Source of the DNA: Candidatus Melainabacteria bacterium
GTDB lineage: Bacteria; Cyanobacteriota; Vampirovibrionia; Obscuribacterales; Obscuribacteraceae
Direction of reading: 5' to 3'
DNA: 38,879 nt
NCBI GenBank assembly: GCA_023250095.1
Contig: JAHFBI010000008.1
Location: 1 to 38,879, forward strand
How positions within the stretch are numbered: position 1 is the stretch's first letter; each line of letters begins with the position of its first letter. Under the pieces are notes generated by a model. That model was given only the letters and a program-made list of their open reading frames with translations, had not been told where the DNA came from and ran no database searches. A program made the translations under genes and the position numbers. Of this stretch, positions 10,961 to 38,198 are shown in pieces.

Positions 10961-12251
10961 CATTCCGCCAGGAAGCACATACAAGCTGGAGCCCGAGACA
11001 CGCTTCTTTATCTGCTTGTTGCTTGCCTTTTCCCTCTATTTCATTGCCGCCAGCATCGGCAGCGGCTGGATTTTCCTAATGGCGGCCGGACTTCTGGCTG
11101 CCCTGGCAGCCGGGCTTGCCTTGCCAGCGGACATGGTGGCAGGCGTCTCTGTTGAGGCAAGCTGCCCGGCTCAAGCAACCGCGGGCGAATCGCTAAAGGT
11201 GAATCTTACTTTCAAACACCCGCAAGGGTCCCTCTGGCATGCACCGGTACACTGGTTGCTCGTCAGCTATCTTCCTTTGAATCTAAGAGAAAGGACAAGC
11301 GCCCACCCTTCCCGGAACACTAGCAACAAAGATTCGTTGCCGCTGCCGCAGCAGGCACCGCTATTAATAGAATCTCTAACTAACGAAGAAACAATTGTCT
11401 GGCACACAGCTCCGCTTGAGCGGGGTGTTTACTTAGCGGCAGAAATCTGCCTTGAATCTGCCTATCCGCTGGGCATAGCCTGGTCGAAAAGAAAGGTGTG
11501 CACGGAGGCTCGCATCACCGTCTATCCGAAAGTCGTACCCATTGCCGGACAGTTTCTCTACAAGCTGAGCGCTGCCGGCGCGGGTACAACAGGTGTGCCG
11601 CGCGGAGGTTCGGCGCACCAATCCACTTATACGCGCGGCGTCAGGGCCTATGCCCGCGGCGACAGCCCGCGCACCATACACTGGGTCTCCAGCGCACGCC
11701 AGGCGAAGCTTATGGTTCGCGAATTCGACGCCGAAGGTCTGCCACTTTTCGACATTTTTATCGATCTCTGCGCCCCCTGGCGAAGCTATCGGCAGTTTGA
11801 GCTGGCGGTGACGACAGTGGCTTCCTTACTCTATCTGGGGCAACGCAACGCCATTCACCCTGAGCTTTATATCAGCGGGCAAGCAAATCTGCTCGACCTA
11901 GATTTGCCTGCCTCCTTGCCGGGCATCGAGATGGACATGGAGATTCTGGCACGTCTTTCCCCGGCGAAGAACAAGGACCCGAAGCTGCCTTTTGCTCACC
12001 CGCGCGCCCGGCAAAGAACCCTTGTTACCGTCTGCCCGGATCAAAGCGCCTGCCCCCCCTGCCTGAACTCTTACTATATCGAAGTTGCAGACAGTCCAGC
12101 CAGCAGAACCTCGATGCAAAATCAGCCAGGCAGTTCCCGCCTCCCCGCAGCAGATTCCAGCGTCAGGACAAACGCTCCTTCTTTGTACAGCCGCAACAAT
12201 TCGGCCACTTCAAGCCTGGTTGCCGGCGAAGAAGACATCTCTCTTTTGTGA
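10911..12251 (+). CDS. DUF58-domain membrane protein
   Basis: DUF58 proteins accompany MoxR ATPases and transglutaminases; their biochemical role is not settled. Two hydrophobic helices lie near residues 30-65 (FFICLLLAFSLYFIAASIG, GWIFLMAAGLLAALAAGLAL). A beta-rich region follows, then the DUF58 core at about 243-272 with VRAYARGDSPRTIHWVSSAR and KLMVREFDAEG. The ATG at 10911 lies inside moxR; GAGGGA is somewhat distant (about 13 nt), but no better start occurs before the first helix. The C-terminal 60 residues are Ser/Pro-rich and poorly ordered. The transglutaminase gene starts 7 nt after its stop, consistent with one transcript. Confidence 0.92.
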   Translation: MARSSRRLPPGSKSPSNIPPGSTYKLEPETRFFICLLLAFSLYFIAASIGSGWIFLMAAGLLAALAAGLALPADMVAGVSVEASCPAQATAGESLKVNLTFKHPQGSLWHAPVHWLLVSYLPLNLRERTSAHPSRNTSNKDSLPLPQQAPLLIESLTNEETIVWHTAPLERGVYLAAEICLESAYPLGIAWSKRKVCTEARITVYPKVVPIAGQFLYKLSAAGAGTTGVPRGGSAHQSTYTRGVRAYARGDSPRTIHWVSSARQAKLMVREFDAEGLPLFDIFIDLCAPWRSYRQFELAVTTVASLLYLGQRNAIHPELYISGQANLLDLDLPASLPGIEMDMEILARLSPAKNKDPKLPFAHPRARQRTLVTVCPDQSACPPCLNSYYIEVADSPASRTSMQNQPGSSRLPAADSSVRTNAPSLYSRNNSATSSLVAGEEDISLL

Positions 12252-12258
12252 GGCAAAA

Positions 12259-14619: not shown

Positions 14620-14752
14620 CGGATGGCACTTGCCGGAATCAGAAGTCAAGGTTCGGATATCGTTTGAACATCCCCCAATCTGGCCGCTCGCCGCGCCAGT
14701 CCTGAATAATCACAAAGGAAAAGGGGCACAAATGGTTAATTTTCGTCATCTT

Positions 14753-14769
14753 TTGGCACAATAGGAGCA
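14753..14769 (+). promoter_or_regulatory. Sigma-54-like -24/-12 element (tentative)
   Basis: TTGGCACAATAGGAGCA has the GG and GC dinucleotides at exact sigma-54 spacing and a full TTGGCAC -24 box, but only GAGCA instead of TTGCA at -12. It lies about 70 nt before the AAA+ ATPase start in a 218-bp intergenic region. A chance match is possible. Confidence 0.3.
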
Positions 14770-14837
14770 TAAGTTACTCTGAGAGGAAGCCTTAGGGCAG
14801 TTACTATTCGACTTCGAGAGCACGCAGGGAAAAAGCA

Positions 14838-16118
14838 ATGGTTCAACAATTACGGACAGGGCAGCAACAAGATTTCGTCCCCCCATATCCCAACACCATC
14901 GAGGAGACAGGTCTTAAAGAAGGCTTTCTCGAAGAACTCATCATGAAGGACATCTTCCTGGTGAACTTCGCTCTAGGCCGCGAGATCGCCTCGCGCACCA
15001 ATCTGCCGTTCAAGATAGTGGAAGGGGTGCTTGAATCCTTGAAGCGTCAGATGCTTGTCGAGGTCAGAGCCGCAGGCGGCATCGCCGACTATGAATACAC
15101 ACCGACTGATAAAGGTCGCGACCGGGCAAGAGCCTTCTTCGATCACAATACTTACGTCGGTGTCTGTCCGGTTCCCTGGTCAATTTATGTAGAATCGCTC
15201 AAGTACCAAACCATACGTCGCGAATCCGTAACTCCCCGCGATCTGGAAGTGGCATTTTCGGACATCATGGTCAATCGTAAGACCATCAATACTGTTGGAC
15301 CAGCAATCAACTCCGGACGTGGGATGTTCCTCTTCGGTGAAGCAGGTAACGGCAAGACCTCAATTGCCGAGCGTATCGTTCGCAGCTTCCGCGGACATAT
15401 CTTCATTCCCTACGCCGTGGAAATCGACGGACAAATAATCCGGCTCTATGATCAGCACAACCACCAGCAAGTATCCGCCTCCAATTATCCGCGCGACTAT
15501 GATCACCGCTGGATCCGCATCAATCGTCCCTGCGTCGTAGTCGGCGGCGAACTGACCATAGATATGCTGGAGCTACAATACGACTACTCCGCCAAACTCT
15601 ACGAAGCCCCACTGCAGCTCAAGTCCAATTGCGGGCTTCTGCTCATCGACGACTTTGGCAGACAGCGCATCGACCACAAATCACTGCTTAACCGCTGGAT
15701 CGTCCCACTGGAGAAGCGCGTCGACTACCTGACACTGCACACAGGCAAGAAATTGGAAGTGCCTTTCGAGCAGCTAATCGTCTTTTCCACCAACCTCAAC
15801 CCAGGCGACCTGGTGGACGAGGCTTTCCTGAGGCGGATCCCCTACAAAATCAACATCACAACGCCGACAGAGGAAGAATTCAAGTGGATCTTTTTGCAAT
15901 ACTGCCAGCGCGCAGGGGTGCCATACAACGAAGAGGCGGTCAACTATCTCATTGAAACCCAGTATCGCAGCGGCCGCCGCATGATGCGTTGCTGTCATCC
16001 CCGTGACGTCATCGATCAGGTGACTAACCTGTGCAAATTCCTGCAGTCCGAGCCGAGACTGACAAGGGAGTACTTGGACCATGCTTGCTCCGTGTACTTC
16101 GCAGCTATGGGCAAGTAA
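14838..16118 (+). CDS. AAA+ ATPase with N-terminal winged helix
   Basis: A 426-residue ATPase. Residues about 46-100 look like a winged helix (IASRTNLPFKIVEGVLESLK followed by the wing YEYTPTDKGRDRARAFF). Walker A is GEAGNGKT (167-174), Walker B LLLIDD (267-272), sensor-1 Asn at FSTNLNP (about 319) and a candidate arginine finger in FLRRIPYK (332-333). The insert between Walker A and B (about 190-262) is long and rich in His, Asp and Tyr. The ATG at 14838 follows AGGGA by 8-9 nt. It is not a MoxR, DnaA or sigma-54 activator by its motifs. It stands between the transglutaminase and the TonB-like gene; the function is unknown, and a DNA-binding or remodelling ATPase is an inference. Confidence 0.88.
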   Translation: MVQQLRTGQQQDFVPPYPNTIEETGLKEGFLEELIMKDIFLVNFALGREIASRTNLPFKIVEGVLESLKRQMLVEVRAAGGIADYEYTPTDKGRDRARAFFDHNTYVGVCPVPWSIYVESLKYQTIRRESVTPRDLEVAFSDIMVNRKTINTVGPAINSGRGMFLFGEAGNGKTSIAERIVRSFRGHIFIPYAVEIDGQIIRLYDQHNHQQVSASNYPRDYDHRWIRINRPCVVVGGELTIDMLELQYDYSAKLYEAPLQLKSNCGLLLIDDFGRQRIDHKSLLNRWIVPLEKRVDYLTLHTGKKLEVPFEQLIVFSTNLNPGDLVDEAFLRRIPYKINITTPTEEEFKWIFLQYCQRAGVPYNEEAVNYLIETQYRSGRRMMRCCHPRDVIDQVTNLCKFLQSEPRLTREYLDHACSVYFAAMGK

Positions 16119-16170
16119 GAGGGCCGCGCACGCCTCTTGCCTTAAGTGAAACGCCGGTAAGTTTTACTTG

Positions 16171-16200
16171 CTGACAGCCCGTGTTAACATGGGCTGTCAG
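16171..16200. repeat. 30-bp near-perfect palindrome over a start codon
   Basis: CTGACAGCCC (16171-16180) and GGGCTGTCAG (16191-16200) are exact inverted repeats, and the centre contains the palindrome TGTTAACA, so 28 of 30 bases are symmetric. It lies 53 nt after the AAA+ ATPase stop and contains the only upstream ATG (16189) of the TonB-like gene. It may be a terminator hairpin, an operator or a translation-controlling structure; no T-run follows. Confidence 0.85.
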
Positions 16201-17505
16201 TCATTTTCAGCCACAGAAGAGCCCGGACCGGTCCACTTGTCAGGCGTTTCACCTCAAGTAGAACAGCAAGAGAACCCAGCACCTGTAGCTCAAGACTCCG
16301 TGCTTGCGCTCAGACGAATATCCCTGGAAAAGCGCCAAGCTCTAAGCACCTTTTGCATCTGCTTTTCCTCCATTATCTGGTGCGCAGGGCTGTCCCGGCT
16401 AGGCATCGCCAGCGAAGGACTGCCCTGGTATATCACAATTGCCGCCGTGGCTGCCTTCTCGACTCGCTACCTCACACGCCGGGCGCCAAGAATCTACCCG
16501 GCAGTCAAAGCTCTCTGGGGCAGCGAGTCCCTTCATTTCCTCGAATCCTGGGCAATCACTTATCTGGCAGCAGCCGTCATGCTCTATTTGTTGATTGCCG
16601 GACAATCCCTTGCCCCTGCGCCTGAGCCTGCCCATGTGACTCATTTCGTGGACATCGAACTGACCTCGTTGCAAGATGCCCAGGACAGACATTCTCCTAT
16701 GCCTGCAACAAAGGAAGCTGTAGATCTGCGCAAACGCACTGGTGATCAAATCAACTCTCAAGGCTCGCTCACGCCAACCACGAAGAAAGCATCGGCACAA
16801 GCCACTGCAAGGCCGCTCCCGCCACACTCACAAAAAGAAGAAGCAACTGACAGGAAGGAAGAGCCGCAGGTCAAATCGACCGTCGACAGCCGCGCGACCA
16901 AAATGTCAGCGGACAGATCAAAGACGTCCATGAACCTATCCTCGCTCGAGATTCCCACACCCTGGAAAACAGTGTCTGCGCATCCCAGGGTAGATTCCAC
17001 AGCCCATGACCTCTCTGAGCCGCCGGCGCGTCAGCAACCCCAACCCACGGGGCAGGAGCAGCAAAACGACGAGCGTCCTTATCTGGAAGAAGTGGCTCCG
17101 CCCGAGCTTGTGGAGATGGTCGATAATGACGGCGACAAAAACAGCCTCGACGTTTTTCAGACGGGAGGCAATTCAGCTGGTGGGAAAGGCGCCAAATCCG
17201 ACCTGTCTTCCTACCTGAAAGAGCTCCACAAACGCATCAAGAACGCCTGGTCACCGCCGCGCGGGCAATCCCGCAGGGCTGAAATTCTCTTTCGCCTGCG
17301 CCAGGACGGACGACTCTCCTTCCTCAAAATAGCCAGATCATCCGGAGACACAGCCACAGATGAAGCAGCCATGCAAGCCGTATCCAGGGCAGCTGCCTTC
17401 CGGCAGCTGCCCGAGTCCTGCCATCTCGGCTATCTGGACGTGCTCTACACCTTCAACTACACTGCCGATGAACTGAAAGAGATCTCGCCCCTTCTTCAGA
17501 ATTAG
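16189..17505 (+). CDS. TonB/TolA-like energy-transducer protein
   Basis: The C-terminal 95 residues fit the TonB C-terminal fold: SSYLKELHKRIKNAWSPPRG, ILFRLRQDGRLSFLKIARSS, then AMQAVSRAAAFRQLPESC. Before it lies a long Pro/Ser/Lys/Gln-rich linker (about 150-330) able to span the periplasm, and three N-terminal hydrophobic segments (STFCICFSSIIWCAG, WYITIAAVAAFSTRYL, TYLAAAVMLYLLIAG) instead of the usual one. The start is unsure: the ATG at 16189 sits in a palindrome with no ribosome binding site, a TTG at 16168 is possible, and an internal GTG near 16300 cannot be excluded. No ExbB/ExbD or TonB-dependent receptor gene is nearby. Classification as TonB-like is good; partners are unknown. Confidence 0.8.
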   Translation: MGCQSFSATEEPGPVHLSGVSPQVEQQENPAPVAQDSVLALRRISLEKRQALSTFCICFSSIIWCAGLSRLGIASEGLPWYITIAAVAAFSTRYLTRRAPRIYPAVKALWGSESLHFLESWAITYLAAAVMLYLLIAGQSLAPAPEPAHVTHFVDIELTSLQDAQDRHSPMPATKEAVDLRKRTGDQINSQGSLTPTTKKASAQATARPLPPHSQKEEATDRKEEPQVKSTVDSRATKMSADRSKTSMNLSSLEIPTPWKTVSAHPRVDSTAHDLSEPPARQQPQPTGQEQQNDERPYLEEVAPPELVEMVDNDGDKNSLDVFQTGGNSAGGKGAKSDLSSYLKELHKRIKNAWSPPRGQSRRAEILFRLRQDGRLSFLKIARSSGDTATDEAAMQAVSRAAAFRQLPESCHLGYLDVLYTFNYTADELKEISPLLQN

Positions 17506-17590
17506 GACTGCACCAGAAGATGCGCAGGCTTGTCGGCCCCAAAAATGACTCAAACCATAGCTTTTGATTCTGGCAGATGAAGGGAATCAA

Positions 17591-18214
17591 TCACAGCAAC
17601 AGTCTCTTGCGCTCATCTTTGCCTGTCCAGGGCTTGAACGAGTTTATCAAAAGCTGAACTGTCATCCAGCCGGGCATCAGTCCTGCATGCCTGGTAACTT
17701 CCAGACGTTCGTTGCGCCCGAACGCGGAGGTTGCCTTCCGTGTCGTGACCTGATCGCATTGGTCCTTGCCGAAATACCAGAGGGCTCTGATGACCAGCCC
17801 GACCTGTCCGTCACCCATTGCAGTCTTGCGCGGCGCCAGGCGTCTAAGGTGAATAACAATTCCACCATAGACAAACGAGCTTGTAGCACCGTTTGTAGCA
17901 TATACAACCTCCCCACCTGCTGCCTGATGAAAGCCCAGAGATCGTGCAGCATCGCGTCCGTAGCAAAATACTTCCTTGGCAAACGCCCTTGCCTTGGCTG
18001 ATGCAACTTGAAAAGGAGTTGGCAGGGCGCCGAGAGCATGGGATGCAATAAAGACACCACGCGCCAGTCGCTTAATTGAACCAGATTTGACCAACCTGTA
18101 TAGCGTTTGATCGACGGCTGCACGATAGCCATAACATAAGAGTTCTCGAGTCGTAAAAATCTGCCCGCTCGGAAGCCGTGCGATGTGCCGTTTGATCTGA
18201 GCCGCGGTCCACAT
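17591..18214 (-). CDS. AbiEi/DUF6088-like antitoxin-type transcriptional regulator
   Basis: The N-terminal winged helix reads WTAAQIKRHIARLPSGQIFT, then AAVDQTLYRLVKSGSIKRLA and RGVFIASHALGALPTPFQVA, the pattern of DUF6088 / type IV AbiEi antitoxins that repress their own promoter. The second half is beta-rich, with YATNGATSSFVYGGIVIHLR and APRKTAMGDGQVGLVIRAL. The ATG at 18214 has GGAGGG 4-5 nt upstream, better than the longer frame to 18268. No AbiEii nucleotidyltransferase toxin gene adjoins: the downstream gene is the convergent TonB-like gene. Its base composition is a little lower in GC than the neighbours, consistent with but not proof of transfer. Confidence 0.8.
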   Translation of the reverse strand: MWTAAQIKRHIARLPSGQIFTTRELLCYGYRAAVDQTLYRLVKSGSIKRLARGVFIASHALGALPTPFQVASAKARAFAKEVFCYGRDAARSLGFHQAAGGEVVYATNGATSSFVYGGIVIHLRRLAPRKTAMGDGQVGLVIRALWYFGKDQCDQVTTRKATSAFGRNERLEVTRHAGLMPGWMTVQLLINSFKPWTGKDERKRLLL

Positions 18215-19461: not shown

Positions 19462-22002
19462 TCATGGACGGAGTGCGCCGCAGCCACCTGGACGGAAAAT
19501 TAGGCAGTGACGTCCGTCAGGATGCAAAACTGAAAGTCCAGCCAGCTTAGCCAGTTCATGCTCGAGATCGGGCTTGTGCGAAATAACACCATGATTGAGA
19601 ATTACAGTGCGCGCACCCGACTTCCTCAGCAAGATATGGAAGGGCTCGCTGTCGCCAGAGGACTCACTATCGCAAAAGCGCTTGCTGCTGCCAGAGGTTT
19701 CGTTGTTCGGGACTAAAGCACTGGCACTGGCAGAAACGGTATCCAATCTATTCTCCGATACAAAACAGACCGCGTCGCACGAAGGGATCCCTGACGCCGT
19801 GCAGGGCATCTTTGCCCAATCATCAGACAAGACCAACAATCTGAACCCCGTCAGCTTGTGGGCAACCAGCCAGGCACTGCCGAAAGGTTCACTTACAAAA
19901 TCTCCTTCGTCTACCCCCTTTACCTCAGGTACACTGTCACAAGCAACCAGACGGCAACCGAAATAAAGCAGCGGACGAGCGACATGGCAGCTCTTCTCGT
20001 CGCCCAGACATAATGCCTGATGCCGACTATCAAGCAAAAGGACGCTGGCGTTTGAACAAACAAGCGTCAGGTCCGGCAGACGCGCTGGACAGAGCATACA
20101 GACAAGCGCGAGAAGAAAGCACGCAAGACTTTCCTTGACCAGATGTCTGCAACTCAGCCCGCGGAATAAGGCAAGCAAACAACAGTAATAGCAAACTATG
20201 GAAAAAGCGCATGGCGGTCCGACATTTATTCTGGCCCAAGCGCACGAAGATAAACAATCGACTGTCCAGATCATGAGCTTCAATGGTAAATCGGCAACTC
20301 GATCGAGGACCATCGCGACAGGAAGAGACCAGGGAACAATCGTACCAGCAATGGCAAGCAAGCTAGAGGCAAAGCCAAAAATAGTGGCAAGAGGCACCAC
20401 CGGTGCCACCAGCATGTTTGAAAGCACGAAGAACAAGCCCACCTGCCAGAAATAAAGCACTTGCAATGGCAATACGCTGGACTGAGCCACAAGAACTACG
20501 GACAGAGCTTCTACCAGCTTGTCATTCAACGATGGGAAGAGCTTTACCAGGCAGCGGCTCAGAGGAGTGACACCGATGATGATACCGGCAGTGGCGCAAT
20601 AGGACAGTTGCATGCCGACATCAGCCAGGCAAAGAGGATCGACAATCAAAGTAAGAACGAGTGCTGCAGCCAGGGCAGCTGGCGGGTGCAGGGTACGGAA
20701 GAAACAACGCGAAAGCAGGACCAGCCCGCACATGATAGCTGCCCTCTCAACAGACGGTGAGAGACCGGCCAGCCCTACGAAGAAAGACATACCCAGGAAA
20801 GCTGCAATATTGACCGCCAGTGCAGACCTGGTAACCAGGCGCACAAGCCACCAGACGATAGCAGTGACCATCGTGAGATTGAAGCCTGAGGCCGCCAGAA
20901 TGTGAGACAAGCCAACAAGGCGAAACTTGCTGGAAAGAGTCTCTGGCAAGTTCACCGCCCTGTCGCCAATCACCATTGAGGCAAGCAAATCCCCGTCCAG
21001 ACATCCAATAGCCTTCCTGTGCAGATCAAGCATCTTCATGCGCAGGCAAGAAAAGCACCCTTCCACTTTCCCCGACAGGGCATCAACTCCGCTTTCGGCG
21101 AAGGGCTTCGAATCATCACCGGTAGCTTTTCCCAACTGGCAGACGGATCTGCCAGTTGCCGACATTACCGAGAAGATACCGCGTCGAGCCAAACGCACTT
21201 TCTGATCCACTTCGAAGGGATAGGCAGCACCCTCAGGCAATGCAATTCGCCCGCGCACCCGCACAAGATCGCCTTCGGCAAGAACAAACGGCAGCGGTAG
21301 GGAACGCTTGCCAGAGCTCTTGCCCGGCGACTGCCCGAATAAGGTCAGGAGGATTTTGCCGCCCACCTGTCCTTGAGGTGGAAACAGCATGCGCTGGACT
21401 GAGACTACGGCGCGCGTGACATTTCCTTCACCCGGGGACAGGATCTGCACAACTTCGCCTTGCAGTACTTTCTGCTTGCCGCCTGCAAAATGGCTGACGT
21501 CGTTGTCCAGGCAAGAAGGCATGCGCCAGCACGTATACTGCCACATCAAAACCGGCAGCATCGCTAGAATTACTGCCTGCTTGAGCCGACTCAGCAGGCA
21601 GCCGACACAAATTCCAAGAAACACAAACAAAAGCAGGACACAGGCAGGAAAGCCAAAAACACCGACTGCACAGCCCCCTGTAAGAAGTAAAGCCCCGGTG
21701 ACAAAGAGACGCGGCCCTACTTGCAGCCATTCCGGATTGACCAGCTGCGTCAGCAGCCTCAGGCAGCCATCTGTCAGGAATGAGACAACCCTCATCCACA
21801 GCCGCCCGATTCTCCCTGGCACAAGATCGCTTTTCACGGTAGCCCCTGAAAGCACTGTTGCAGCTGCCGGATGGCGCACAGCCCGAATAGAGCTGCTGAA
21901 CATCTGGCACCAGGCAGTAAGACGAGTGCGCAAGCAAATTGGTTCAAAAAATCGCCGACAGAACTTCGTGCCTTTTCCATCTTTGGGCACAGCAGAAAGC
22001 AC
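19462..22002 (-). CDS. comEC: ComEC/Rec2-family DNA uptake channel
   Basis: ComEC forms the inner-membrane channel for single-stranded DNA in natural transformation. N-terminal helices (residues about 60-150) lead into a DUF4131-like beta-rich domain (about 155-310), then the Competence domain with LSHILAASGFNLTMV (near residue 364), LAGLSPSVERAAIMCGLVLL, DVGMQLSYCATAGIIIG and multiple helices to about 630. The C-terminal 210 residues sit where many ComEC proteins have a metallo-beta-lactamase-like domain, but I see no HxHxDH motif, so that domain is degenerate or replaced. The proposed start is the GTG at 22002; ATGs about 34 residues further in are alternatives. No other com genes lie in the window. 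Confidence 0.93.
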   Translation of the reverse strand: MLSAVPKDGKGTKFCRRFFEPICLRTRLTAWCQMFSSSIRAVRHPAAATVLSGATVKSDLVPGRIGRLWMRVVSFLTDGCLRLLTQLVNPEWLQVGPRLFVTGALLLTGGCAVGVFGFPACVLLLFVFLGICVGCLLSRLKQAVILAMLPVLMWQYTCWRMPSCLDNDVSHFAGGKQKVLQGEVVQILSPGEGNVTRAVVSVQRMLFPPQGQVGGKILLTLFGQSPGKSSGKRSLPLPFVLAEGDLVRVRGRIALPEGAAYPFEVDQKVRLARRGIFSVMSATGRSVCQLGKATGDDSKPFAESGVDALSGKVEGCFSCLRMKMLDLHRKAIGCLDGDLLASMVIGDRAVNLPETLSSKFRLVGLSHILAASGFNLTMVTAIVWWLVRLVTRSALAVNIAAFLGMSFFVGLAGLSPSVERAAIMCGLVLLSRCFFRTLHPPAALAAALVLTLIVDPLCLADVGMQLSYCATAGIIIGVTPLSRCLVKLFPSLNDKLVEALSVVLVAQSSVLPLQVLYFWQVGLFFVLSNMLVAPVVPLATIFGFASSLLAIAGTIVPWSLPVAMVLDRVADLPLKLMIWTVDCLSSCAWARINVGPPCAFSIVCYYCCLLALFRGLSCRHLVKESLACFLLALVCMLCPARLPDLTLVCSNASVLLLDSRHQALCLGDEKSCHVARPLLYFGCRLVACDSVPEVKGVDEGDFVSEPFGSAWLVAHKLTGFRLLVLSDDWAKMPCTASGIPSCDAVCFVSENRLDTVSASASALVPNNETSGSSKRFCDSESSGDSEPFHILLRKSGARTVILNHGVISHKPDLEHELAKLAGLSVLHPDGRHCLIFRPGGCGALRP

Positions 22003-22057: not shown

Positions 22058-24619
22058 TCAGCGCCTTGTGTTTGGATTGACATTATACGGGCGGCTGTAG
22101 CCTGTGTTGTTAGGTATGAAACCAGGTTGGCTCAGGGGATTATTTCCATTGTCCGTATTAGGGACAGAAAAGGGATTGTCGAAATGGTTGTTGTACTGGT
22201 TTTGCACAGCTTGTGGAACCTTGCTGCGCATCCTGTCGGCAATCATGAGCAACTTTCTTTGATCCGGAGCATTGCCGTCGAGTTGTCCGGCTTGCGTCAG
22301 ATAGCGCTGGGCATCGCTGTAGAGTATCGCCGCATCCCCACCGTTGTTCTTGTCGGCTTTATAGTCGGCAATGGACATGAAGAGCAAAGCCACATCGCGG
22401 CACATCTTCGCCTTATATTGCGGATCGTTGGTTCTCAGACCATCCACCTGGGCTTTGAGATTGACGCCGAAATGGTTGAGCGCGTCCTCATTGGCTCTGT
22501 AGTTGTCCTTGAGCGTCTTGAAGATGCCGTCAATATCGTGCTCGCCATAGACAGCCTTGAGCTTGTCCTCAACAGATTTGAGGGACTTCTGCAGATCCTG
22601 CACCTCGCGGTCGTCAATCTGCTTGCCGTTGACTTCTTCGCCCTTGTGCTGCATGGCATAATTTTGAGCCTCGACCAGGGAACCGGCAGAAAGGCGCAAG
22701 AAAGATGTAGCTTGACCACCAAGATCGAGATTGGAACCTTCGAGCAAACGCCCTTCTTTGTTGTGTTTGGTGAGATCGGTCTTTGTGCCATAATCGAGCC
22801 ACATATTGCCGACAGCGGCAGCGAGTCCAGCGGTGCCTCTCAGACGGTTGAGCGGATGATCGTTTGCATGGTTCTGCTGGAAATCAGCCATTTGCAACTC
22901 AAGGGCAGCTTCGTTCTCCTTGCCGAGCTTCGTGCCCTTCTTGACGATACTTTCGAATGTAGAGTCTGTGCGCCTGCCAACATCAGCTTTCACAGCTTCG
23001 GTAGTATCCGAATTGAGCTGTTGCCCATTGTTGCCGTCAATACCAGTGCCGGCGGCAAAGAGATTCCAGAGCCGTCCAGCTCCCCAGCTGGCGCCCACAC
23101 CAATCCACTTCCACTTGGCGTCAACTGGCGCCAGAGCTGCGGCAGTTATGCCCAGTGTTTCAATAGAGTTCGGGCGCATCAAAGTCGAATAGTCAGTGCT
23201 GGGGGCCGGAAGCACTTTATCCAGAAGCTTCGAGCCAAGGATCACAGTACCTGCCAGAGGGATCTTCCATTTCAGAGGAATGTCGGCCATCAAAGTCAGG
23301 GGCAGAGCAATACCTTCGGCGTACCAGCTCGGCTTGCCTGGCACGGACAGTCCTTTGTCGAGCAGATGATCGAAAGCCGTCAGTCCAGCACCAATCAAAA
23401 GACCTTTAGCCAGACCGGTCGAAGCAGCCTTACCGAGTCCCGGACCTTCGGCGCGCTCTGCCTTGAGCACAGCCTCGGTTGCCGAAGCAACTTTCGCCTG
23501 GGCAGCCTCCTGAGCCTTGGTGAGATCGGCCAGCTTACCCAGAGCCTGAGCGCGTGGTGCCAGCTGTGCGGCTTCGCTGGCTGTGAACAATTTCTGCCCC
23601 AGCGCCACTTCACTGGCCGTGCCTGTCTGAGCCTCCAGTCCGGACATAGTGTGCGCTTCTTTGGACGTAATGAACGCTTGTTGTGCTCTGGCAATTCTAA
23701 TTTCTACAGGCACTGCCGAATCGGCCTGCCCAATGAAAGGCGCGACCTTGGCCGAAAGCGCATCATTGAAAGCGGATACCGCCGGCATGGCCGCATGTAC
23801 TTCCGCCTGAACCGGGGCAACTTTCGCCAGGATATCGACATGAGCGGCTTCAGCTGCTTTTAAGGCAGTCTTTTGCTCGGCAACGAGCGCTCGCATCGGG
23901 CTGTAATTTTCGCGCCAGGTCTTCGCCCAGCCTGTACGCTCTTCCGGAGCTATCTTGCCCGAATAATGATCGAGAGCCCAGATTGCCGAATTCATGCCGG
24001 CGCCAACGATACCAGCTTCAATAACGTAATGATTGAGATCTGTCTGGCGATTAAGCGACTGGGCAATAATGCCCCGCTGCTGATCGTTAACTACCGAACG
24101 ACTGCCCTGACTGCCAGGCATGCCGGGCTGTGCTTGTGTATTCTGCCTTTGAGAAGCATAGTCCTTCCAGTCAGGAACTGCTTGCTGCCCGCCGGAGTTG
24201 TAACCACGGTTATCGCCATACTGGGGATTTTGAGGCGGCCACTGCGGTACTGACTCCTGTCCATTCATGCCGCGTGTCGTCGTGCCGACGTCGCCGCCAT
24301 ATGTAGCTCGACCGCCAATTATGACCGGACCGCCATTGTTGTTGAAATTAGGATTCTGCGGCGGGGACCAGTTGCCGTCAGATTGCTGCATACCGCTGGT
24401 TGTCGTGCCGACGTCGCCGCCATATGTAGCTCGACCGCCAATTATGACCGGACCGCCATTGTTGGGTCCGCCAGTGCGCTGCACTTCAGGGTTGGAAGAC
24501 TGCGGATTGGCATTTGCACCATCGTTCCAGACAGTACCCCAGGGAGAGTTGCTATCGCCGGAACCCTGCTTGCCGTTCATCACGTCGTCAAAGCCACGAC
24601 CGTTGCGATCACCGCCCAT
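22058..24619 (-). CDS. Giant paralog 1: Gly/Asn/Pro-rich N-terminus, hydrophobic middle, helical C-terminus
   Basis: An 853-residue protein of a family I do not recognise, clearly homologous to the upstream gene. The start at 24619 (MGGDRNGRG) is set by GGAGGG 8-9 nt upstream and by the matching MGGD start of the paralog. Residues 1-150 are Gly/Asn/Pro-rich and contain two copies of GGPVIIGGRATYGGDVGTTT. The shared core begins at about 190 (GWAKTWRENYSPM), continues with a charged helical region, then hydrophobic segments at about 370-510 (LAKGLLIGAGLTAFDHLLDK, TLGITAAALAPV). The C-terminal half is helical with NLDLGGQATSFLRL, VYGEHDIDGIF and GLRTNDPQYKAKMCRDVALL. The tail is Asn/Pro-rich. 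No catalytic motif or signal peptide is visible. Confidence 0.85.
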   Translation of the reverse strand: MGGDRNGRGFDDVMNGKQGSGDSNSPWGTVWNDGANANPQSSNPEVQRTGGPNNGGPVIIGGRATYGGDVGTTTSGMQQSDGNWSPPQNPNFNNNGGPVIIGGRATYGGDVGTTTRGMNGQESVPQWPPQNPQYGDNRGYNSGGQQAVPDWKDYASQRQNTQAQPGMPGSQGSRSVVNDQQRGIIAQSLNRQTDLNHYVIEAGIVGAGMNSAIWALDHYSGKIAPEERTGWAKTWRENYSPMRALVAEQKTALKAAEAAHVDILAKVAPVQAEVHAAMPAVSAFNDALSAKVAPFIGQADSAVPVEIRIARAQQAFITSKEAHTMSGLEAQTGTASEVALGQKLFTASEAAQLAPRAQALGKLADLTKAQEAAQAKVASATEAVLKAERAEGPGLGKAASTGLAKGLLIGAGLTAFDHLLDKGLSVPGKPSWYAEGIALPLTLMADIPLKWKIPLAGTVILGSKLLDKVLPAPSTDYSTLMRPNSIETLGITAAALAPVDAKWKWIGVGASWGAGRLWNLFAAGTGIDGNNGQQLNSDTTEAVKADVGRRTDSTFESIVKKGTKLGKENEAALELQMADFQQNHANDHPLNRLRGTAGLAAAVGNMWLDYGTKTDLTKHNKEGRLLEGSNLDLGGQATSFLRLSAGSLVEAQNYAMQHKGEEVNGKQIDDREVQDLQKSLKSVEDKLKAVYGEHDIDGIFKTLKDNYRANEDALNHFGVNLKAQVDGLRTNDPQYKAKMCRDVALLFMSIADYKADKNNGGDAAILYSDAQRYLTQAGQLDGNAPDQRKLLMIADRMRSKVPQAVQNQYNNHFDNPFSVPNTDNGNNPLSQPGFIPNNTGYSRPYNVNPNTRR
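24279..24464 (-). repeat. Two identical 63-bp repeats inside paralog 1
   Basis: Bases 24279-24341 and 24402-24464 are identical, with a period of 123 bp (41 codons). They encode the duplicated GGPVIIGGRATYGGDVGTTT motif in the low-complexity N-terminus. Complete nucleotide identity, including third positions, points to recent duplication or gene conversion. Confidence 0.93.
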
Positions 24620-25013
24620 ACTTACTACCCTCCGAAACCCTGAAGAATCACCGCTTTCTGCGGTCAAAAAATTCAGTAAAGTGACATCCTGCCCTGCAGG
24701 TTAATATTAAGGACTGCTCAGGTTCGGGTAAATGCGTGTAATCCCCCCTTTAGGGGGAAGATTCCCATTTAAGTCGCTCCGTCGCCTTCGTCACTTGCCT
24801 CCTCCGCTGTGAAGCCGCTTGGCGGCCGACGGCTCCCCGCCGTCGTTGCCGCGCTGGTTTCGTTTGCTTGCCGGGCGCTCCGTCGCCTTCGTCACTTGCC
24901 TCCTCCGCTGTGAAGCCGCTTGGCGGCCGACGGCTCCCTGCCGTCGTTGCCGCGCTGGTTGCGTTTGCTTGCCGGGCGCTCCGTCGCCTTCGTCACTTGG
25001 CGCCGGCAGGCAG
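24620..25013. other. 394-bp gap between the two giant paralogs
   Basis: No credible gene is seen. The right two thirds (24775-24999) is a 101-bp tandem repeat. The left part has a C-rich/G-rich short inverted repeat near 24743-24757 (CCCCC, TTTA, GGGGG) that might form a terminator-like stem upstream of paralog 1, and that gene's ribosome binding site. A minus-strand frame running through the repeats shifts phase with each unit (101 is not a multiple of 3), which argues against coding. Confidence 0.7.
24775..24999. repeat. 101-bp tandem repeat, 2.2 copies
   Basis: Copies start at 24775, 24876 and 24977 (the third stops after 23 bases). The two full copies differ at only about two positions. 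Each full unit contains the perfect inverted repeat CGACGGC / GCCGTCG with a 5-nt loop (24827-24845 and 24928-24946), extendable by GGC/GCC with a bulge. It behaves like an intergenic minisatellite with a REP-like hairpin in each unit. Confidence 0.93.
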
Positions 25014-28007
25014 CTAGCGACGGGTTTTGCGTTCCAAGGGGGACTGGGAATTGTATGGGGGTCCGAGCAATCCGCTGCCGGAAGGAACATAGGGAGCAGG
25101 GCCGGGTGAATCTGGCTTGGGGCTCGCCGGTTGTAGGGTAAACGGTGCAGCAGGAGTGCCAAGCGGAGGCACCCGGGGAGACTCGTACTGCGGGGTGACA
25201 CCAAAGGGATTGTTGACGCCACTCTGATATTGTCCCTGCATCTTGCCCAGCAGGACTGGCGAAAGCTGAGAAGCGATGTTGCGCATCTGCTGGATGTCGG
25301 TGTGTCCGGCTTCCAACTGATCGGCAGTTTGCAAGTATTGCATGGCTTCGTCGAAATGTGCTTTGGCACCGGCTCCGTCCGATCCGTCGGCTTTAGCTCC
25401 GGCAAAAGCAAGTTTGATCAAAGCTACGTCTCGATGAAGTTTGGCGGCAAACCTGGTTTCATCCGTGCGCAGCCCTGCCACTTGCTGTTTCAAATCCATG
25501 ACAAAACGAGCCAGCTCGTCCTGGTGAATACGGGCGTAAGCTTTGAGATCATCATAGCAGCCCGGTCTGTACTCGCCCGATTGCTCCAGGTAGCCTTCAA
25601 TATTATGTGCTCCATAGATAGTATCGAGCTTGCCGTCTATGTACTTGCGCAAAGACTTAAGATCTCCGATTTCTTTGTCTGTCACTTCCTTGCCGCGTAC
25701 CGGCTTGCCCTGGTTCGCCTCCGCCTCTCTTTGAGCCTCCGCCATTTCAAAGCGCGCCTGGCGCAGGAAAGCCAGAGCCTTGCCACCGAGATCGAGGTTG
25801 CGCCCGGAAAGGAGCCTGGTGGCATCCTCACGCTGGTTGAGGTCGAGATTTATCCTGCTGCCTTTCTCAAGCCACAACTCCCCGGCAGCCTGGCTGATGA
25901 GAGCTGTCTGGCGGTGAGCAAGTAAAGCAGGCTCCGACTGTGGGTCTGTCCTGACCTTCTTCTGCCAGTTGCCCAGCTGTTCCAGCAGAGCCGCTATATT
26001 CTCCTGCCCGAGCGCCTTGCCCTTCGCCACGCCAGACAGGAAACTTGCCTCAGTGCGTTCGCTATAGTCTGCCTGATAACTGCGCACTGCATCGCGCTGC
26101 AACTTTACCGGCGGCTCCATTGCCGTGAAGTGATTGTAGAGCATACCGCCGGTGAAGCCGACAGCAGCAGCGCCAGCCTTCACACGCCAGTCGCCGGGCA
26201 TCATCGCACCGATACCAGCTGCCCCCAGCGGCAAAGCAACATGACCGGGTATATCGAGCCCGGGGATTGGCAATCTATCTAGATTGTTCAGGTGACTCGA
26301 GATATAGCCAAGACCAATCATGCCCCCTTTAACCCAGGGGTTCTTGATCGGCGCGAGCACCGCTGCCGTAGTCAGAACAGCCTCGGCAGTGTTGGGACGG
26401 AAGAAATCGCTGTAGCGCCCTTCCGAATAGCCCTTGAACGCCCAGCAATCCACAGCACGCCCGACGGCAAGCGATCCTGCCAGGCCGAGAACCTTAGCCT
26501 TGTTAGACCATGGACCGACCAGGAGCAAGGGTATCCCGACACCATCAATTAGAGAACGTATCGGACCGGGTGTTTCTGGGGGCTTGTATCCGAACAATTT
26601 GCTTCCTGCATAATCCGCCAAAGAATCTCCGAACAAGAGTCCAGCGGCAATCAATCCACCATATCCAGCCCCTTTCAGCACCGGATGTTTTGCTGCGGAC
26701 TCACCTTTGAGCAGAGCCTCCTTAGCTATCTCCAGACTTTTGACCGTGCTGGTCTCCAGCGCCGCAACTTCCCTGATTCTGGCGTCTTTGCTCACAAGCC
26801 GCTTGAGCATGTTCGCCTCTTCCTGTGTGAAGAGTTTCCCGGCAGAGAGGACTGCCGAATCACTGGTTACGGCATCGATGGCTTCCTTCGTCCAGTTCTG
26901 CCGATTGACAACAAAACTATCTCTCAGCTCGACAATCGCCTTATCGGCACCGGTCTTGGTTGCCTCCTGAGCCAGCCGCTCGAACAATGTGCCGCGCACG
27001 GCAGCGAACTCAGCTTCGGAGGAGGCTTTGTCCAGTCTGATTGTGCTCAAGGAGCTTTCAAGACCGCTGACCCCGGCACGCAAATTCAGGATCACTTCCG
27101 CCGGGCTCAGATTGTCGCGCCAGGCCTTGACCCAACCGCTGCGCTGAGCCAGGGGGATGCCGGAGGTGTAATAATCGAGCCCCTGCTCGGCCGCCTTGAT
27201 GGCGGCTCCTGTCAGAGCGCCAGTCATCAAGAAACCAGTCGTGTTGGATTTGAGATAAAGAGAATTGTCTACAATGCCTGCCACCTTCTGCGCATCGTAT
27301 GTCAATCCGGCGTTGTCGGTTGCCGCCCCTGGCTTACGAGAATTATCCGCTACCCCAGAAGGCGCAATCCCGGCACGGCGTTGCTGCTCCTGGAACGCCT
27401 GTCCGTCCCTTCTGTCGCGCTCGGCGGCGCCGGCGCCTGGCGTCCACTGCCCTGTCGGGAAAAGACCTGGACTGGTCGCTTGGCTCCCGGGTGGCACGAC
27501 GCGCCCCGGTTGTACAGGCTGATAAGGTTGTGCAGGCTCACCGCCCCTCCCACCATGACCAGGTGTCAGGGGATTTCCAGGCGGCGCGAAGGATCCCGGG
27601 CCCGACGGCTGCTGGGACACTGGCGCAAACGGGCTCTGCCGCGGCGCTTCCCAGGGACTACCCGGACGCATCGGTTGCACTGTTGGCGGTGGCACATACT
27701 GCCCGCCTGGTGGGATCAAGTGAGCCGGAGTGTTGGTCGCAGGCGGCTCGGGCCTGGGTTTGGTCGCCTCGATAGCCCCGGGGGCCAGCTGTCCGCCATA
27801 CACTGGGCGCCACTGCCTGCTTGGATCATTTATGGGCGTGCGATTCTGTGTACGCTCTATCTCTACCTTTAAAGCTGTCTTGCTGTCTTGCTCGCTTGCA
27901 AGCTTTCCGAAGAAATTCCCGCTGCCGACAAGCTCTTCCCAGCTCCGCCCAACATCTTTGCTTGAAACTTCACTTCCGCCGCTGAACTGGCTCTTGTCGC
28001 CACCCAT
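25014..28007 (-). CDS. Giant paralog 2: Pro/Gly-rich ends, hydrophobic middle, helical C-terminus
   Basis: A 997-residue protein homologous to the next gene downstream. It starts MGGDKSQFSGG at 28007 behind GGAGG. Residues about 60-220 are Pro/Gly/Gln-rich. The shared core reads GWVKAWRDNLSPAE, KLFTQEEANML, FFRPNTAEAVLTTAAVLAPI, RTEASFLSGVAKGKALGQEN, NLDLGGKALAFLRQA, IYGAHNIEGYL and GLRTDETRFAAKLHRDVALI, each with a counterpart in paralog 1. Hydrophobic segments lie around residues 430-650 (GYGGLIAAGLLFGDSLADYA, VALPLGAAGIGAMMPG), so membrane association is plausible. The C-terminus ends in a Pro-rich tail (PASPKPDSPGPAPYVPSGSG). No enzymatic motif is recognised; a structural or scaffold role is speculation. 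Confidence 0.86.
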   Translation of the reverse strand: MGGDKSQFSGGSEVSSKDVGRSWEELVGSGNFFGKLASEQDSKTALKVEIERTQNRTPINDPSRQWRPVYGGQLAPGAIEATKPRPEPPATNTPAHLIPPGGQYVPPPTVQPMRPGSPWEAPRQSPFAPVSQQPSGPGSFAPPGNPLTPGHGGRGGEPAQPYQPVQPGRVVPPGSQATSPGLFPTGQWTPGAGAAERDRRDGQAFQEQQRRAGIAPSGVADNSRKPGAATDNAGLTYDAQKVAGIVDNSLYLKSNTTGFLMTGALTGAAIKAAEQGLDYYTSGIPLAQRSGWVKAWRDNLSPAEVILNLRAGVSGLESSLSTIRLDKASSEAEFAAVRGTLFERLAQEATKTGADKAIVELRDSFVVNRQNWTKEAIDAVTSDSAVLSAGKLFTQEEANMLKRLVSKDARIREVAALETSTVKSLEIAKEALLKGESAAKHPVLKGAGYGGLIAAGLLFGDSLADYAGSKLFGYKPPETPGPIRSLIDGVGIPLLLVGPWSNKAKVLGLAGSLAVGRAVDCWAFKGYSEGRYSDFFRPNTAEAVLTTAAVLAPIKNPWVKGGMIGLGYISSHLNNLDRLPIPGLDIPGHVALPLGAAGIGAMMPGDWRVKAGAAAVGFTGGMLYNHFTAMEPPVKLQRDAVRSYQADYSERTEASFLSGVAKGKALGQENIAALLEQLGNWQKKVRTDPQSEPALLAHRQTALISQAAGELWLEKGSRINLDLNQREDATRLLSGRNLDLGGKALAFLRQARFEMAEAQREAEANQGKPVRGKEVTDKEIGDLKSLRKYIDGKLDTIYGAHNIEGYLEQSGEYRPGCYDDLKAYARIHQDELARFVMDLKQQVAGLRTDETRFAAKLHRDVALIKLAFAGAKADGSDGAGAKAHFDEAMQYLQTADQLEAGHTDIQQMRNIASQLSPVLLGKMQGQYQSGVNNPFGVTPQYESPRVPPLGTPAAPFTLQPASPKPDSPGPAPYVPSGSGLLGPPYNSQSPLERKTRR

Positions 28008-28171: not shown

Positions 28172-28735
28172 CTAGACGTTATTCAAATAATAACGGCTGT
28201 GTGCGGCTGCCGGCTGACCATTGTACTTGGCGCCAGGTTTTTCATTGTATGCCATCTGACAGGGGGCGGTTCTGGTGAAGACCATCTGTCCGATCGGCAT
28301 GCCGGCGTGCAAGCGCACTGGACGATTGCCGACATTGACTATTTCGAGCGTTATCTGAGCAGGAGGATGACTGAATCCAGCGTCGATAAAGCCGGCCGTC
28401 ACGTGCACCATGACTCCGAGCCTGGCCAGGCTGGACTTGCCAGTTAGCTGACCGACAATGTCCCGCGGCAAGCAAACCTTCTCCAGAGTCGCACCAAGGA
28501 TAAATTCCCCAGGCTTGAGAACGATGCTTTCCTGACTGACATGCACCAGACTGGAAAGAACCGTTTCCGACTGATAGGGGTCTATGACCTCCTCAGACCT
28601 CTCGTGCCAGGAGAAGCGCTCGGACAACCTGACATCGTAGGAGTTGGGCTGAATGAGGCTGGCTTCGAAGGGATCGAGAATGAGCTTGCCGGAGGCAACC
28701 TCGTCCCTGATTTCGTGATCGACAAGAATAGACAC
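28172..28735 (-). CDS. dcd: dCTP deaminase
   Basis: Dcd deaminates dCTP to dUTP for thymidylate synthesis; some members also hydrolyse dUTP to dUMP. Motifs: IQPNSYDVRLSE, LKPGEFILGATLE, GKSSLARLGVMVHVTAGFID, the TLEIVN strand with the expected catalytic Glu, and the C-terminal KYNGQ. I chose the GTG at 28735 (VSILVDHEI) because GGAGG lies 9 nt upstream; the TTG at 28741 would leave only 3 nt. At 187 residues it has normal length. Sequence alone does not decide between mono- and bifunctional types. It follows the ferredoxin-NADP reductase gene by 77 nt on the same strand. Confidence 0.94.
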   Translation of the reverse strand: MSILVDHEIRDEVASGKLILDPFEASLIQPNSYDVRLSERFSWHERSEEVIDPYQSETVLSSLVHVSQESIVLKPGEFILGATLEKVCLPRDIVGQLTGKSSLARLGVMVHVTAGFIDAGFSHPPAQITLEIVNVGNRPVRLHAGMPIGQMVFTRTAPCQMAYNEKPGAKYNGQPAAAHSRYYLNNV

Positions 28736-28812
28736 TATCAACGTCCTCCGTTGCCTGCTAGTCCCAGTTCGACACAGAATAGATTCCGGTCGGACAACTT
28801 CTGCCCGACTTG

Positions 28813-35414: not shown

Positions 35415-38198
35415 ATGTTTTCAAAATCAGGGGTGGACAGGGTATCTCGAATGGGTTCAAGGCTGCAGCGGCGGCCAGGAAAAAGTGCAAGAGGAGTCAA
35501 GGGCAATACGCTTGTCCTCGTATCGGCCATCACGATAGGACTGTTGATTGCCATCGTGCTTTTTGCGCTCAACTACGGGCGCCTGTTAGGGGGAAGCACA
35601 GAGCACCTTACAGCTATCGAAGCTGCCAGCCTGGCTGCAGCTCAAGATCTCTCCCGCGTAGTCATAAACGACGACTATTACGGCTATATCAGCCTGAGCG
35701 ACTATCCGCCCATCGGGCTGGGGACAAAGGCTGCTGACAAAGAGCCGCTTCCTGTGCTCAGCATAAACACTGTACTGGCCACAGCGCGCCTGGACATGAT
35801 TATTGCCCAGAATGTCAAAGACCAGACCGGCGACTCCACAGTCTTCACCCTGGCAAAAGCAGATGTCGCCAAAGCCCGGGCTGCAGCAAATAGCCTCAAT
35901 GCCACGCTCGCCTCCGTCCTCAACGGCGGCACAGCCAAAGATCTCGACGGCAATACGGTCGACCCGCTTGCGCACGCGCAAAAGGTCTATCAGTCCAACC
36001 TGACCAAGTTGACCGGCGGAGACGTGGTAGTAAATTCATTCAAACTCAGCCTAGGATATCTGGAGAATGGCAGCACCACTTTGACCGACCTGCCGAAACC
36101 GGACAACCAGGCACAGGTAAGCCCGGACCAGCAGCTAGATGGACACTATAAAGCTTTTGTCAGCGTCCCAGCTTGCGGTGAAGACTTTTATTTTGCCGGC
36201 ATTGCCAGGCAACCTTCTCTGGTCGATGCCAGGCAGTTTCGCGATCCAGACAGCAAACGCGCTTGCTCCATAGTGAAAGCAGAAGCCGACCACACAATCA
36301 CCGCCTCGCTCAGCCAGGGGGATAACGGAGAGCAAGTATCGCATCCTGTGCATTCAATCGCATGTGCTCAACCTTCGGGCAATACGGATATGAGCCCGCC
36401 TGGCGTCCTGACACTAGGCTTCCCGAACGGGCTGGTTCCTGGAATTAACTCCATCAAAGACATATTCTCAAACGGCGACCTGAACACCAACACAAGCAAA
36501 GTTTTCACAGCTCAAGGCGGCGACTGGCCCTCGACTTTCCCGGGCGATCCCAGCACTTCTTTGCTCGCCCCTGGCAATATCCCCGGTATCTCCAATCCGC
36601 CTTCCGTCACGCAAACTTTTGGTACAGGTTTCTTCCACTGGTTGCGTGCTGCCCGCACTCGCCCGAAAATCTCGGCCATAGACTCAATGCTCACTCAAAA
36701 CTTTTCGGCAATTCCTGATGACGGCTCCCAGGTTTATTGCGCCCAGGTTTTCCCCTTCTGCCCGCCGGCTTTTGCCAAGAAACCGGATAATCAGGGCAAC
36801 ACAGCGGGCGGCAACGACTTTGCCGTGATGGCTCCAACCTCGCAAGCGGACAGAGATGCCGCCTGGCTGGCCGGAGGCGCCGATGCGAAGTCTTCGTACT
36901 GGAGTGTAGCAGCCAACCTGGATGTCTCGCACGTAGCACCCCCGAATTCACCGGCCCTCGAGCTGGCAGATGACGGGAGCCTGCGCTCCGGCGGCAAAGA
37001 TATAACGCTTGCCGATGTGCAAGCTTTCCAGAACGCGCTCAGCGCAAGCAATACTGCTGCCCTGGCTACGCTTGCCGCAGCCAACAAAGCAGCCTCGGTC
37101 GCCACTACACTTACCGAAACAACAAATGCCACCAACGCCATCACCAACGCTGCTCTTGTAGCAAGCCGCTCGCACGACATGGTCAACAACGAGCAATGGT
37201 TGACAGGCAAAGGGATTCAGGTGCTGCCAGACGGACGATTCAAAGTAAACGGCGACATCGTTACTTCCCACCCGATGCCCTCTGACGTAGCATCCATCCT
37301 GGGAGGAACAGCCAACAGCGGGGACATCAACAACACAAGCTGGACAGCAGACCCTGCCTCGTTCGACTTCTACAAGGGGAAAACAGCTCCCAACGACAAA
37401 GACAAGCAGGACGAACAAATCACAGCTGAAGCCGGCAAATATCTCTTCCTCTACGAATTTGACGCGACCGGCCAGGTTGTAAGTACCAACCTTTGCACAC
37501 TGCCTTTCCAGTACGTTCCTGTTTCTCATAACCAGATCTACACAGTATCTTATGATGCCATCAAGACACAGTCAGGCAAAGCGCCATTGCCTCTTACATG
37601 GGCAGCCACGATGCGTGATGAAACAGCCACAATCGGACTCAACCATGGAGGCATCCACGCCGGACAACCTATGCTCGGCGATCCGGCAGACTGGTGCCGC
37701 GTAGATACTTTCTTCAATACAGTCAACGGCAAAGGCTCCAAAAAGAGCTTCAAGAAGGACGACAATAAAGCCCGCAGCAAAGCCAAAGGCGACTATCTCG
37801 GCATCGATTCTCCAGTGAAAGGCTGGAGCGGACACGGCAACGGCTGGGCATACGGGAAGTGGAAGAGCAAAAAAGGCGGCGCTCTCACTCAGCAACCGCG
37901 CGCAGCATTCTTCTGCGGTGGTCTTTCTTGCGACTTCCAGATCCGCTCGCCCATGGCCATTCTGCCTGCGCCGTCTGGAGCGGCGGTGGTGCCGCCGGGC
38001 GGACTCGTAGGCGGACCGTCTCTGGGTCCTGCTTTCGCCAATATCGGCGGCGTCAATCTGCGCATCCCCAATACGTTCAACTACACAATCGGACCGGGAG
38101 CGAAGAGTTCTGACGATACAGGCGCTGCTCAGAGCCCCGGACCGGATACTCAAACTTCCACAAAGGTCCAGGCCCCGGTTCCCAACTCCTTGATCTGA
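35415..38198 (+). CDS. Large TadG-like secreted/pilus-associated protein
   Basis: A 927-residue protein. After a basic N-terminus (RRPGKSARGVKGN) comes one hydrophobic helix, residues about 31-52 (TLVLVSAITIGLLIAIVLFA), then LTAIEAASLAAAQDLSRVV, the pattern of TadE/TadG-like N-termini, where a helix is followed by an Ala-rich segment. The remaining 850 residues are Asn/Thr/Ser/Gly-rich and soluble, with few Cys, probably exported and beta-rich. The ATG at 35415 follows AGAGGA by 9 nt. No TadA/B/C, prepilin peptidase or other tad genes are near, so it may be an orphan minor component or an adhesin. The C-terminal Pro/Gly segment has no LPXTG or other anchor. Confidence 0.8.
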   Translation: MFSKSGVDRVSRMGSRLQRRPGKSARGVKGNTLVLVSAITIGLLIAIVLFALNYGRLLGGSTEHLTAIEAASLAAAQDLSRVVINDDYYGYISLSDYPPIGLGTKAADKEPLPVLSINTVLATARLDMIIAQNVKDQTGDSTVFTLAKADVAKARAAANSLNATLASVLNGGTAKDLDGNTVDPLAHAQKVYQSNLTKLTGGDVVVNSFKLSLGYLENGSTTLTDLPKPDNQAQVSPDQQLDGHYKAFVSVPACGEDFYFAGIARQPSLVDARQFRDPDSKRACSIVKAEADHTITASLSQGDNGEQVSHPVHSIACAQPSGNTDMSPPGVLTLGFPNGLVPGINSIKDIFSNGDLNTNTSKVFTAQGGDWPSTFPGDPSTSLLAPGNIPGISNPPSVTQTFGTGFFHWLRAARTRPKISAIDSMLTQNFSAIPDDGSQVYCAQVFPFCPPAFAKKPDNQGNTAGGNDFAVMAPTSQADRDAAWLAGGADAKSSYWSVAANLDVSHVAPPNSPALELADDGSLRSGGKDITLADVQAFQNALSASNTAALATLAAANKAASVATTLTETTNATNAITNAALVASRSHDMVNNEQWLTGKGIQVLPDGRFKVNGDIVTSHPMPSDVASILGGTANSGDINNTSWTADPASFDFYKGKTAPNDKDKQDEQITAEAGKYLFLYEFDATGQVVSTNLCTLPFQYVPVSHNQIYTVSYDAIKTQSGKAPLPLTWAATMRDETATIGLNHGGIHAGQPMLGDPADWCRVDTFFNTVNGKGSKKSFKKDDNKARSKAKGDYLGIDSPVKGWSGHGNGWAYGKWKSKKGGALTQQPRAAFFCGGLSCDFQIRSPMAILPAPSGAAVVPPGGLVGGPSLGPAFANIGGVNLRIPNTFNYTIGPGAKSSDDTGAAQSPGPDTQTSTKVQAPVPNSLI

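Follow-up and report, generated by a model that had tools for sequence, protein, structure and literature searches.

Among described proteins, those closest to the C-terminal domain of the family reported here are TPR and TPR-like proteins (4i17, BamD 3qky and the Bro1 domains of HD-PTP and ALIX), with which it shares an antiparallel helix array, and designed TPRs, which its last hairpin (LDPxNPDLxxL) resembles by profile. The domain departs from TPR proteins in its loops YDLGGxA and IYGxHDI and in invariant R/D/K/R/D residues that are not TPR features, in having coiled-coil and hairpin modules N-terminal to it, and in staying below the Pfam TPR cut-offs, with Foldseek E values above 0.001 and TM scores no higher than 0.35. 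With their tandem Gly/Ala-rich hairpins and short polar turns, the proteins presumably also resemble glycine-zipper or small-residue helical hairpin proteins, although the family has no Pfam match and a lower hydropathy. The likeness to ComEC-associated competence factors (ComEA, ComF, DprA) is confined to genomic adjacency to comEC; the family is order-restricted, and neither Pfam nor NCBIfam links its sequence to them.

The DNA comes from Ca. Obscuribacterales (Vampirovibrionia), a non-photosynthetic cyanobacterial order whose founding genome is described in PMC4040986. Biology peculiar to an order is to be expected in core genes confined to that lineage. The cell biology of Obscuribacterales is, to our knowledge, little known.

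The gene pair and its place between dcd and comEC

The window, i.e., the whole 38,879-nt stretch of DNA that was analysed, contains two adjacent minus-strand genes of the lengths and with the MGGD starts given in a preliminary description, flanked by two conserved neighbours:

28172..28741, minus strand: dcd (dCTP deaminase), conserved upstream neighbour (Pfam DCD 2.7e-45; synteny)
25014..28007, minus strand: P0002, upstream paralog, 997 aa (ORF; Shine-Dalgarno-like GGAGG; 30% identity with its neighbour)
22058..24619, minus strand: P0001, downstream paralog, 853 aa (ORF; Shine-Dalgarno-like GGAGGG; family profile E = 1.5e-253)
19462..22002, minus strand: comEC (DNA-uptake channel), conserved downstream neighbour (Pfam Competence 1.4e-47; synteny)

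On sequence inspection P0001 starts at ATG 24619 and P0002 at ATG 28007, with GGAGGG and GGAGG upstream, respectively. The mechanical ORF call for P0002 gave 869 aa from a TTG; the MGGD start, which has a Shine-Dalgarno-like sequence, is favoured here instead. BLASTP aligned the two proteins with 213/710 identities (30%, E = 1e-74), a similarity far above chance that identifies them as true paralogs. The conserved part spans P0001 residues ~183 to 820, while the low-complexity N-tails have no global alignment; every previously quoted motif pair was found in the shared order, both in this alignment and by inspection. The description of the proteins as giant is relative, as full-length relatives span ~730 to 1,340 aa. 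No further family copies were found in the source genome (5.0 Mb, 468 contigs, 96% complete). Between the two genes, at window 24775-24999, lies a GC-rich 101-bp tandem repeat (2.2 copies, 98%), one of 18 matches in total, often tandem and mostly on other contigs of the source genome.

One or two family genes stand between dcd and comEC in 23 of the 26 loci for which both flanks were read, and the genes of the window combine this position with a match to the family profile. The wider gene order is trxB, often ribonucleotide reductase (Pfam Ribonuc_red_lgC), dcd, the family gene(s) and comEC. In 21 of the 23 loci comEC is on the same strand as the family gene, often 54-150 bp away, and at two it is inverted. 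Such closeness suggests co-expression. The products of these genes could perhaps assist ComEC in natural transformation or in handling incoming DNA, as an accessory peculiar to this lineage, and the dNTP-synthesis genes upstream (trxB, ribonucleotide reductase, dcd) are in line with this. Against it, comEC occurs without a family gene in genus g3 and in G019, dispersed copies lie far from comEC among unrelated neighbours, and neighbour inertia accounts equally well for the fixed position. An accessory role in DNA uptake seems improbable, and any link to that process is loose because of the two inverted comEC genes and the lack of a family gene beside comEC in genus g3. In this small-genome genus (G002, 96% complete, and G024), dcd and comEC abut at a distance of 81-86 bp with no gene between them, reflecting either loss or a pre-insertion state.

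Beyond comEC, on the other strand, follow tonB-like, AAA-like ATPase, transglutaminase, DUF58 and MoxR-position genes, the MoxR label being given by position alone. In the window, the MoxR-position, DUF58, transglutaminase (TgpA) and TonB-like cluster (10076-18000, plus strand) is kept beside the locus across the order. The AAA-like ATPase (426 aa; 14838-16118, plus strand) is an extremely conserved neighbour, with 84-89% identity across the order, and its best Pfam match (AAA_16, E 0.02) stays below cut-off. A 1286-aa ORF at 4294-8154 (minus strand), which has no Pfam match, has two related ORFs between the family genes of locus L059 (9187-11529 and 11771-13513; ~30% identity over 224 aa). 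Furthermore, a 927-aa ORF at 35415-38198 (plus strand) gives weak matches of SbsC_C-like (S-layer; E 1e-4) and Tad-like (E 0.01) type, neither of which reaches its cut-off, and has a homolog near comEC in L055.

A family restricted to Obscuribacterales

The view that no named family has this architecture agrees with the library searches. P0001 and P0002 had no Pfam match at E <= 1, 30 family members gave nothing reproducible against Pfam, NCBIfam returned no match at E <= 0.1, and no PHROGs family matched more than one member; explanations by a known family were rejected on these results. P0002 alone matched no PDB sequence, and the family profile matched only designed TPR proteins (at one C-terminal hairpin) and, weakly, coiled-coil-type proteins over the middle. 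No description of such a family turned up in a short literature search. Structural searches, which had been proposed as a check on novelty, bore it out. Neither the P0001 core model (in PDB) nor its C-domain model (pLDDT 92; in PDB or BFVD) had a Foldseek match at E <= 0.001; the closest structural neighbours, at TM ~0.3, are helical-repeat/TPR-like proteins. The absence of a known fold thus holds for the specific arrangement of the C domain and not for its fold class, which is the broad helical-repeat/TPR-like one. Judged against the libraries searched, an undescribed family is supported.

A coiled coil together with hydrophobic helices might also recall a domesticated phage structural protein of the tape-measure type. 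This superficial composition and one weak Pfam TMP_4 match (E 0.066, in 1 of 30 members) are set against the PHROGs result, the absence of relatives in viral contigs, the lack of any viral Foldseek match at E <= 0.001 and a non-phage neighbourhood. With neither a reproducible PHROGs or Pfam match nor a phage gene context, this origin is largely refuted and very improbable. Plasmids likewise contained no relatives, and a plasmid or viral origin was rejected.

The other proposed check, a profile search, confined the family to one order. A 12-row family profile matched 44 of 53 Obscuribacterales genomes, including 19 of the 22 high-quality ones, and none of the 291 genomes from elsewhere in the phylum. 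Of the nine genomes of the order without a match, three (G005, G009, G014) were false negatives of the narrow profile, since a divergent member sits at the expected place, which raises the total to 47 of 53; G003 gave only a weak match to the C-domain profile. In 289 genomes of the class, the C-domain profile found the family only in Obscuribacterales, save for one short weak match outside the order, in G244 (E 5e-5), that is confined to 79 columns of the TPR end; it was taken as generic TPR-like and rejected as a member. Two peptide patterns run against 84,980 species genomes returned 12 loci, mostly labelled Ca. Obscuribacterales, Melainabacteria or Cyanobacteria. The public record 'Proteobacteria bacterium Centralia_MAG_505' (L082/G007) appears, from its relationships and its genes, to be an Obscuribacterales genome, grouped into the family of the window genome, and is likely mislabelled.

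The family is therefore a near-universal core of Obscuribacterales and specific to that order. Order-restricted orphan families are not rare, but this one goes beyond an ordinary orphan in its near-universal presence, fixed locus, separable modules and almost exclusive tail motif. As a signature gene of an entire non-photosynthetic cyanobacterial order, it keeps its chromosomal position, is constrained by purifying selection and escapes the family libraries now in use; the dcd-comEC locus is a marker for that order.

Nei-Gojobori dN/dS was 0.055-0.074 between close orthologs and 0.146 for one recent tandem pair, with synonymous sites near saturation in several pairs. These values (dN/dS 0.05-0.15) show strong purifying selection on the family, and its genes are therefore functional. 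The idea of a fast-evolving gene was rejected, as at short range the family retains 83-90% identity vs 55-64% for the adjacent comEC. Two family genes at the dcd-comEC locus are also seen in L059, L066, L070 and L071. In a C-domain tree of 52 sequences, P0001 and the one copy that another genus has between dcd and comEC group together (bootstrap 97), and P0002 falls outside that clade (weak branch support, 77). Based on this grouping, the pair in the window probably stems from an old rather than a recent duplication; a recent tandem duplication as sole origin was rejected, given also the 30% identity.

Copy number rises to 15 profile matches in one 9.2 Mb genome, and hairpin-only and C-only stand-alone paralogs exist, chiefly in large genomes, so that the modules are separable. 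Perhaps this multicopy, variable nature in large genomes, together with the low-complexity tails, reflects proteins exported by a non-classical route without a signal peptide, either to the surface or as effectors. The diverse neighbours of dispersed copies, which include predicted protease and alpha-2-macroglobulin genes, would suit such a role. Strong purifying selection and a single fixed core locus are unlike typical effectors, however, and no secretion-system gene is consistently adjacent to family loci, which makes export quite unlikely. A consistent partner gene at dispersed copies was rejected, as none was found in their neighbourhoods.

Helical modules and their possible assembly

The preliminary description had the C-terminus right as helical: the C domain is predicted to be all-helical, with 11 helices of 14-24 residues each.

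22145..23041, minus strand: P0001 C-terminal helical-repeat domain, with 11 helices, a TPR-like last hairpin and an NPF tail (AF2 pLDDT 92, pTM 0.87; TPR profile matches)
25188..26117, minus strand: P0002 C-terminal helical-repeat domain (family alignment A5)

By profile comparison, designed TPRs match the last hairpin at E 3e-7, and the other hairpins have long conserved loops. Residues R68, G85, D106, G109, G166, K212, R215, D216, A218 and L254 (domain numbering) are invariant. An NP[FLWY] tail ends the domain in 36 of 55 members vs 3.4 in shuffles. Scores stayed short of the Pfam TPR gathering threshold (only TPR_11 at E 0.13 and TPR_12 at E 0.25, in one member each of 15), and superposition on solved TPR structures reached a best TM of ~0.35 (E > 0.001), below 0.5.

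N-terminal to the C domain, a domain A helix carrying GWxKxWRxNxSP is followed by a coiled coil and then by Gly/Ala helical hairpin units of ~40 aa, two in tandem in P0001 and three in P0002:

26118..27296, minus strand: P0002 middle region, with domain A, coiled coil and hairpin domain B (family alignment)
26436..26546, minus strand: P0002 hairpin unit 1, residues 488-524 (hairpin HMM iE 1.9e-11 or 2e-5)
26280..26405, minus strand: P0002 hairpin unit 2, residues 535-576 (hairpin HMM iE 4.8e-15)
26127..26249, minus strand: P0002 extra hairpin unit 3, residues 587-627 (hairpin HMM iE 2.2e-8)
23042..24088, minus strand: P0001 middle region, with domain A helix, coiled coil and hairpin domain B (family alignment; AF2 model, lower confidence in B)
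23210..23317, minus strand: P0001 hairpin unit 1, residues 435-470 (repeat of unit 2, hhalign probability 95.6, E 1.2e-8)
23057..23182, minus strand: P0001 hairpin unit 2, residues 480-521 (hhalign with unit 1; hairpin HMM)

Calling this middle hydrophobic went too far. In the pair, Kyte-Doolittle hydropathy over 19-aa windows peaks at 1.25 and 1.35, against 2.45-2.8 for the neighbouring TgpA and ComEC, and family maxima of 1.0-1.7 lie below those of TgpA and ComEC (2.0-2.8) and overlap those of soluble neighbours (0.5-1.7); on this simple scale, segments of transmembrane-level hydrophobicity are lacking. The hairpins might still insert into the inner membrane, making the family membrane-anchored or membrane-shaping with its coiled-coil and TPR-like parts in the cytoplasm. 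Their Gly/Ala/Leu/Ile-rich composition, GxxxG-like spacing, short polar turns and two to three tandem copies speak for this, as does the drop in AF2 confidence in exactly the hairpin part (~45-70, with pLDDT 78 for the P0001 core model). Low confidence of this kind is often seen for membrane or oligomer-dependent segments. Considering the hydropathy and the mostly short hairpin helices, insertion appears rather unlikely.

A cytoplasmic, self-associating scaffold or adaptor is the explanation we tentatively favour, short of regarding it as probable, because sequence and hydropathy reveal neither a signal-peptide-like start nor a strongly hydrophobic segment in the family proteins, and because of the tandem hairpins, coiled coil, TPR-like C domain and repeated tail motifs. 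The flexible N-tail would present one to three copies of a putative docking motif, R-x-x-[YW]-[GN]-x-V-A-P, and the coiled coil and Gly/Ala hairpin repeats would build an oligomer, possibly one lying against the inner membrane. A peptide from a partner, or from the tail of a neighbouring subunit, would be bound by the TPR-like C domain. The closeness to comEC may, beyond co-expression, point to a function in DNA uptake or at the cell envelope; the scaffold, membrane, DNA-uptake and export readings are not all mutually exclusive. Counting against a scaffold are the lack of a significant Foldseek TPR match, the low confidence of the modelled hairpins and the absence of the motif, as defined, from about half of the members. 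A more specific and speculative version, which we consider a long shot, is an order-specific, self-assembling cytoplasmic scaffold of hairpin repeats in which RxxYGxVAP N-tails (and NPF C-tails) dock into the TPR-like domains of neighbours to form an order-defining cell structure encoded at the dcd-comEC locus. Through the domain map, family profile and putative docking motif, 'hypothetical proteins' become modules that are open to testing.

The N-terminal tails and their motif

Family N-tails are of low complexity and 180-240 aa long.

27297..28007, minus strand: P0002 Pro/Gly/Gln-rich low-complexity N-tail (sequence; outside the BLASTP-aligned region)
27771..27812, minus strand: P0002 N-tail motif WRPVYGGQLAPGAI, residues 66-79, single copy (family motif)
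24089..24619, minus strand: P0001 Gly/Asn/Gln-rich low-complexity N-tail (sequence)
24398..24463, minus strand: P0001 22-aa repeat copy 1 (NNGGPVIIGGRATYGGDVGTTT, residues 53-74), holding RATYGGDVGTT (exact amino-acid repeat)
24275..24340, minus strand: P0001 22-aa repeat copy 2, residues 94-115 (exact amino-acid repeat)

The motif (PWRxx[YW][GN]x[VI]AP) occurs in up to three copies, 29-38 aa apart, and is retained while the remaining tail diverges. The strict expression finds 31 sites, distributed over 22 of the 62 proteins, vs 0.7 sites in shuffles, and a more permissive one finds 54 sites, spread over 28 of the 50 full-length-like members, vs 0.5 members in shuffles; both expressions were written post hoc from the sequences, and the enrichment is descriptive. 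As an independent check, a DNA pattern of the motif gave 34 matches in 53 genomes vs 2 for a reversed control. Most matches returned as loci lie in family ORFs, including hairpin-only paralogs, and the others are mostly in spurious frames of very short length, making the motif near family-exclusive. The variant RATYGGDVGTT, found twice in P0001 within the exact repeat, recurs in a distant relative (L077). One non-family ORF (L138; G013:C6:258636) carries the motif as WRPPYNGVAP as well as a Gly-rich hydrophobic stretch and is possibly an interaction partner or a remote relative.
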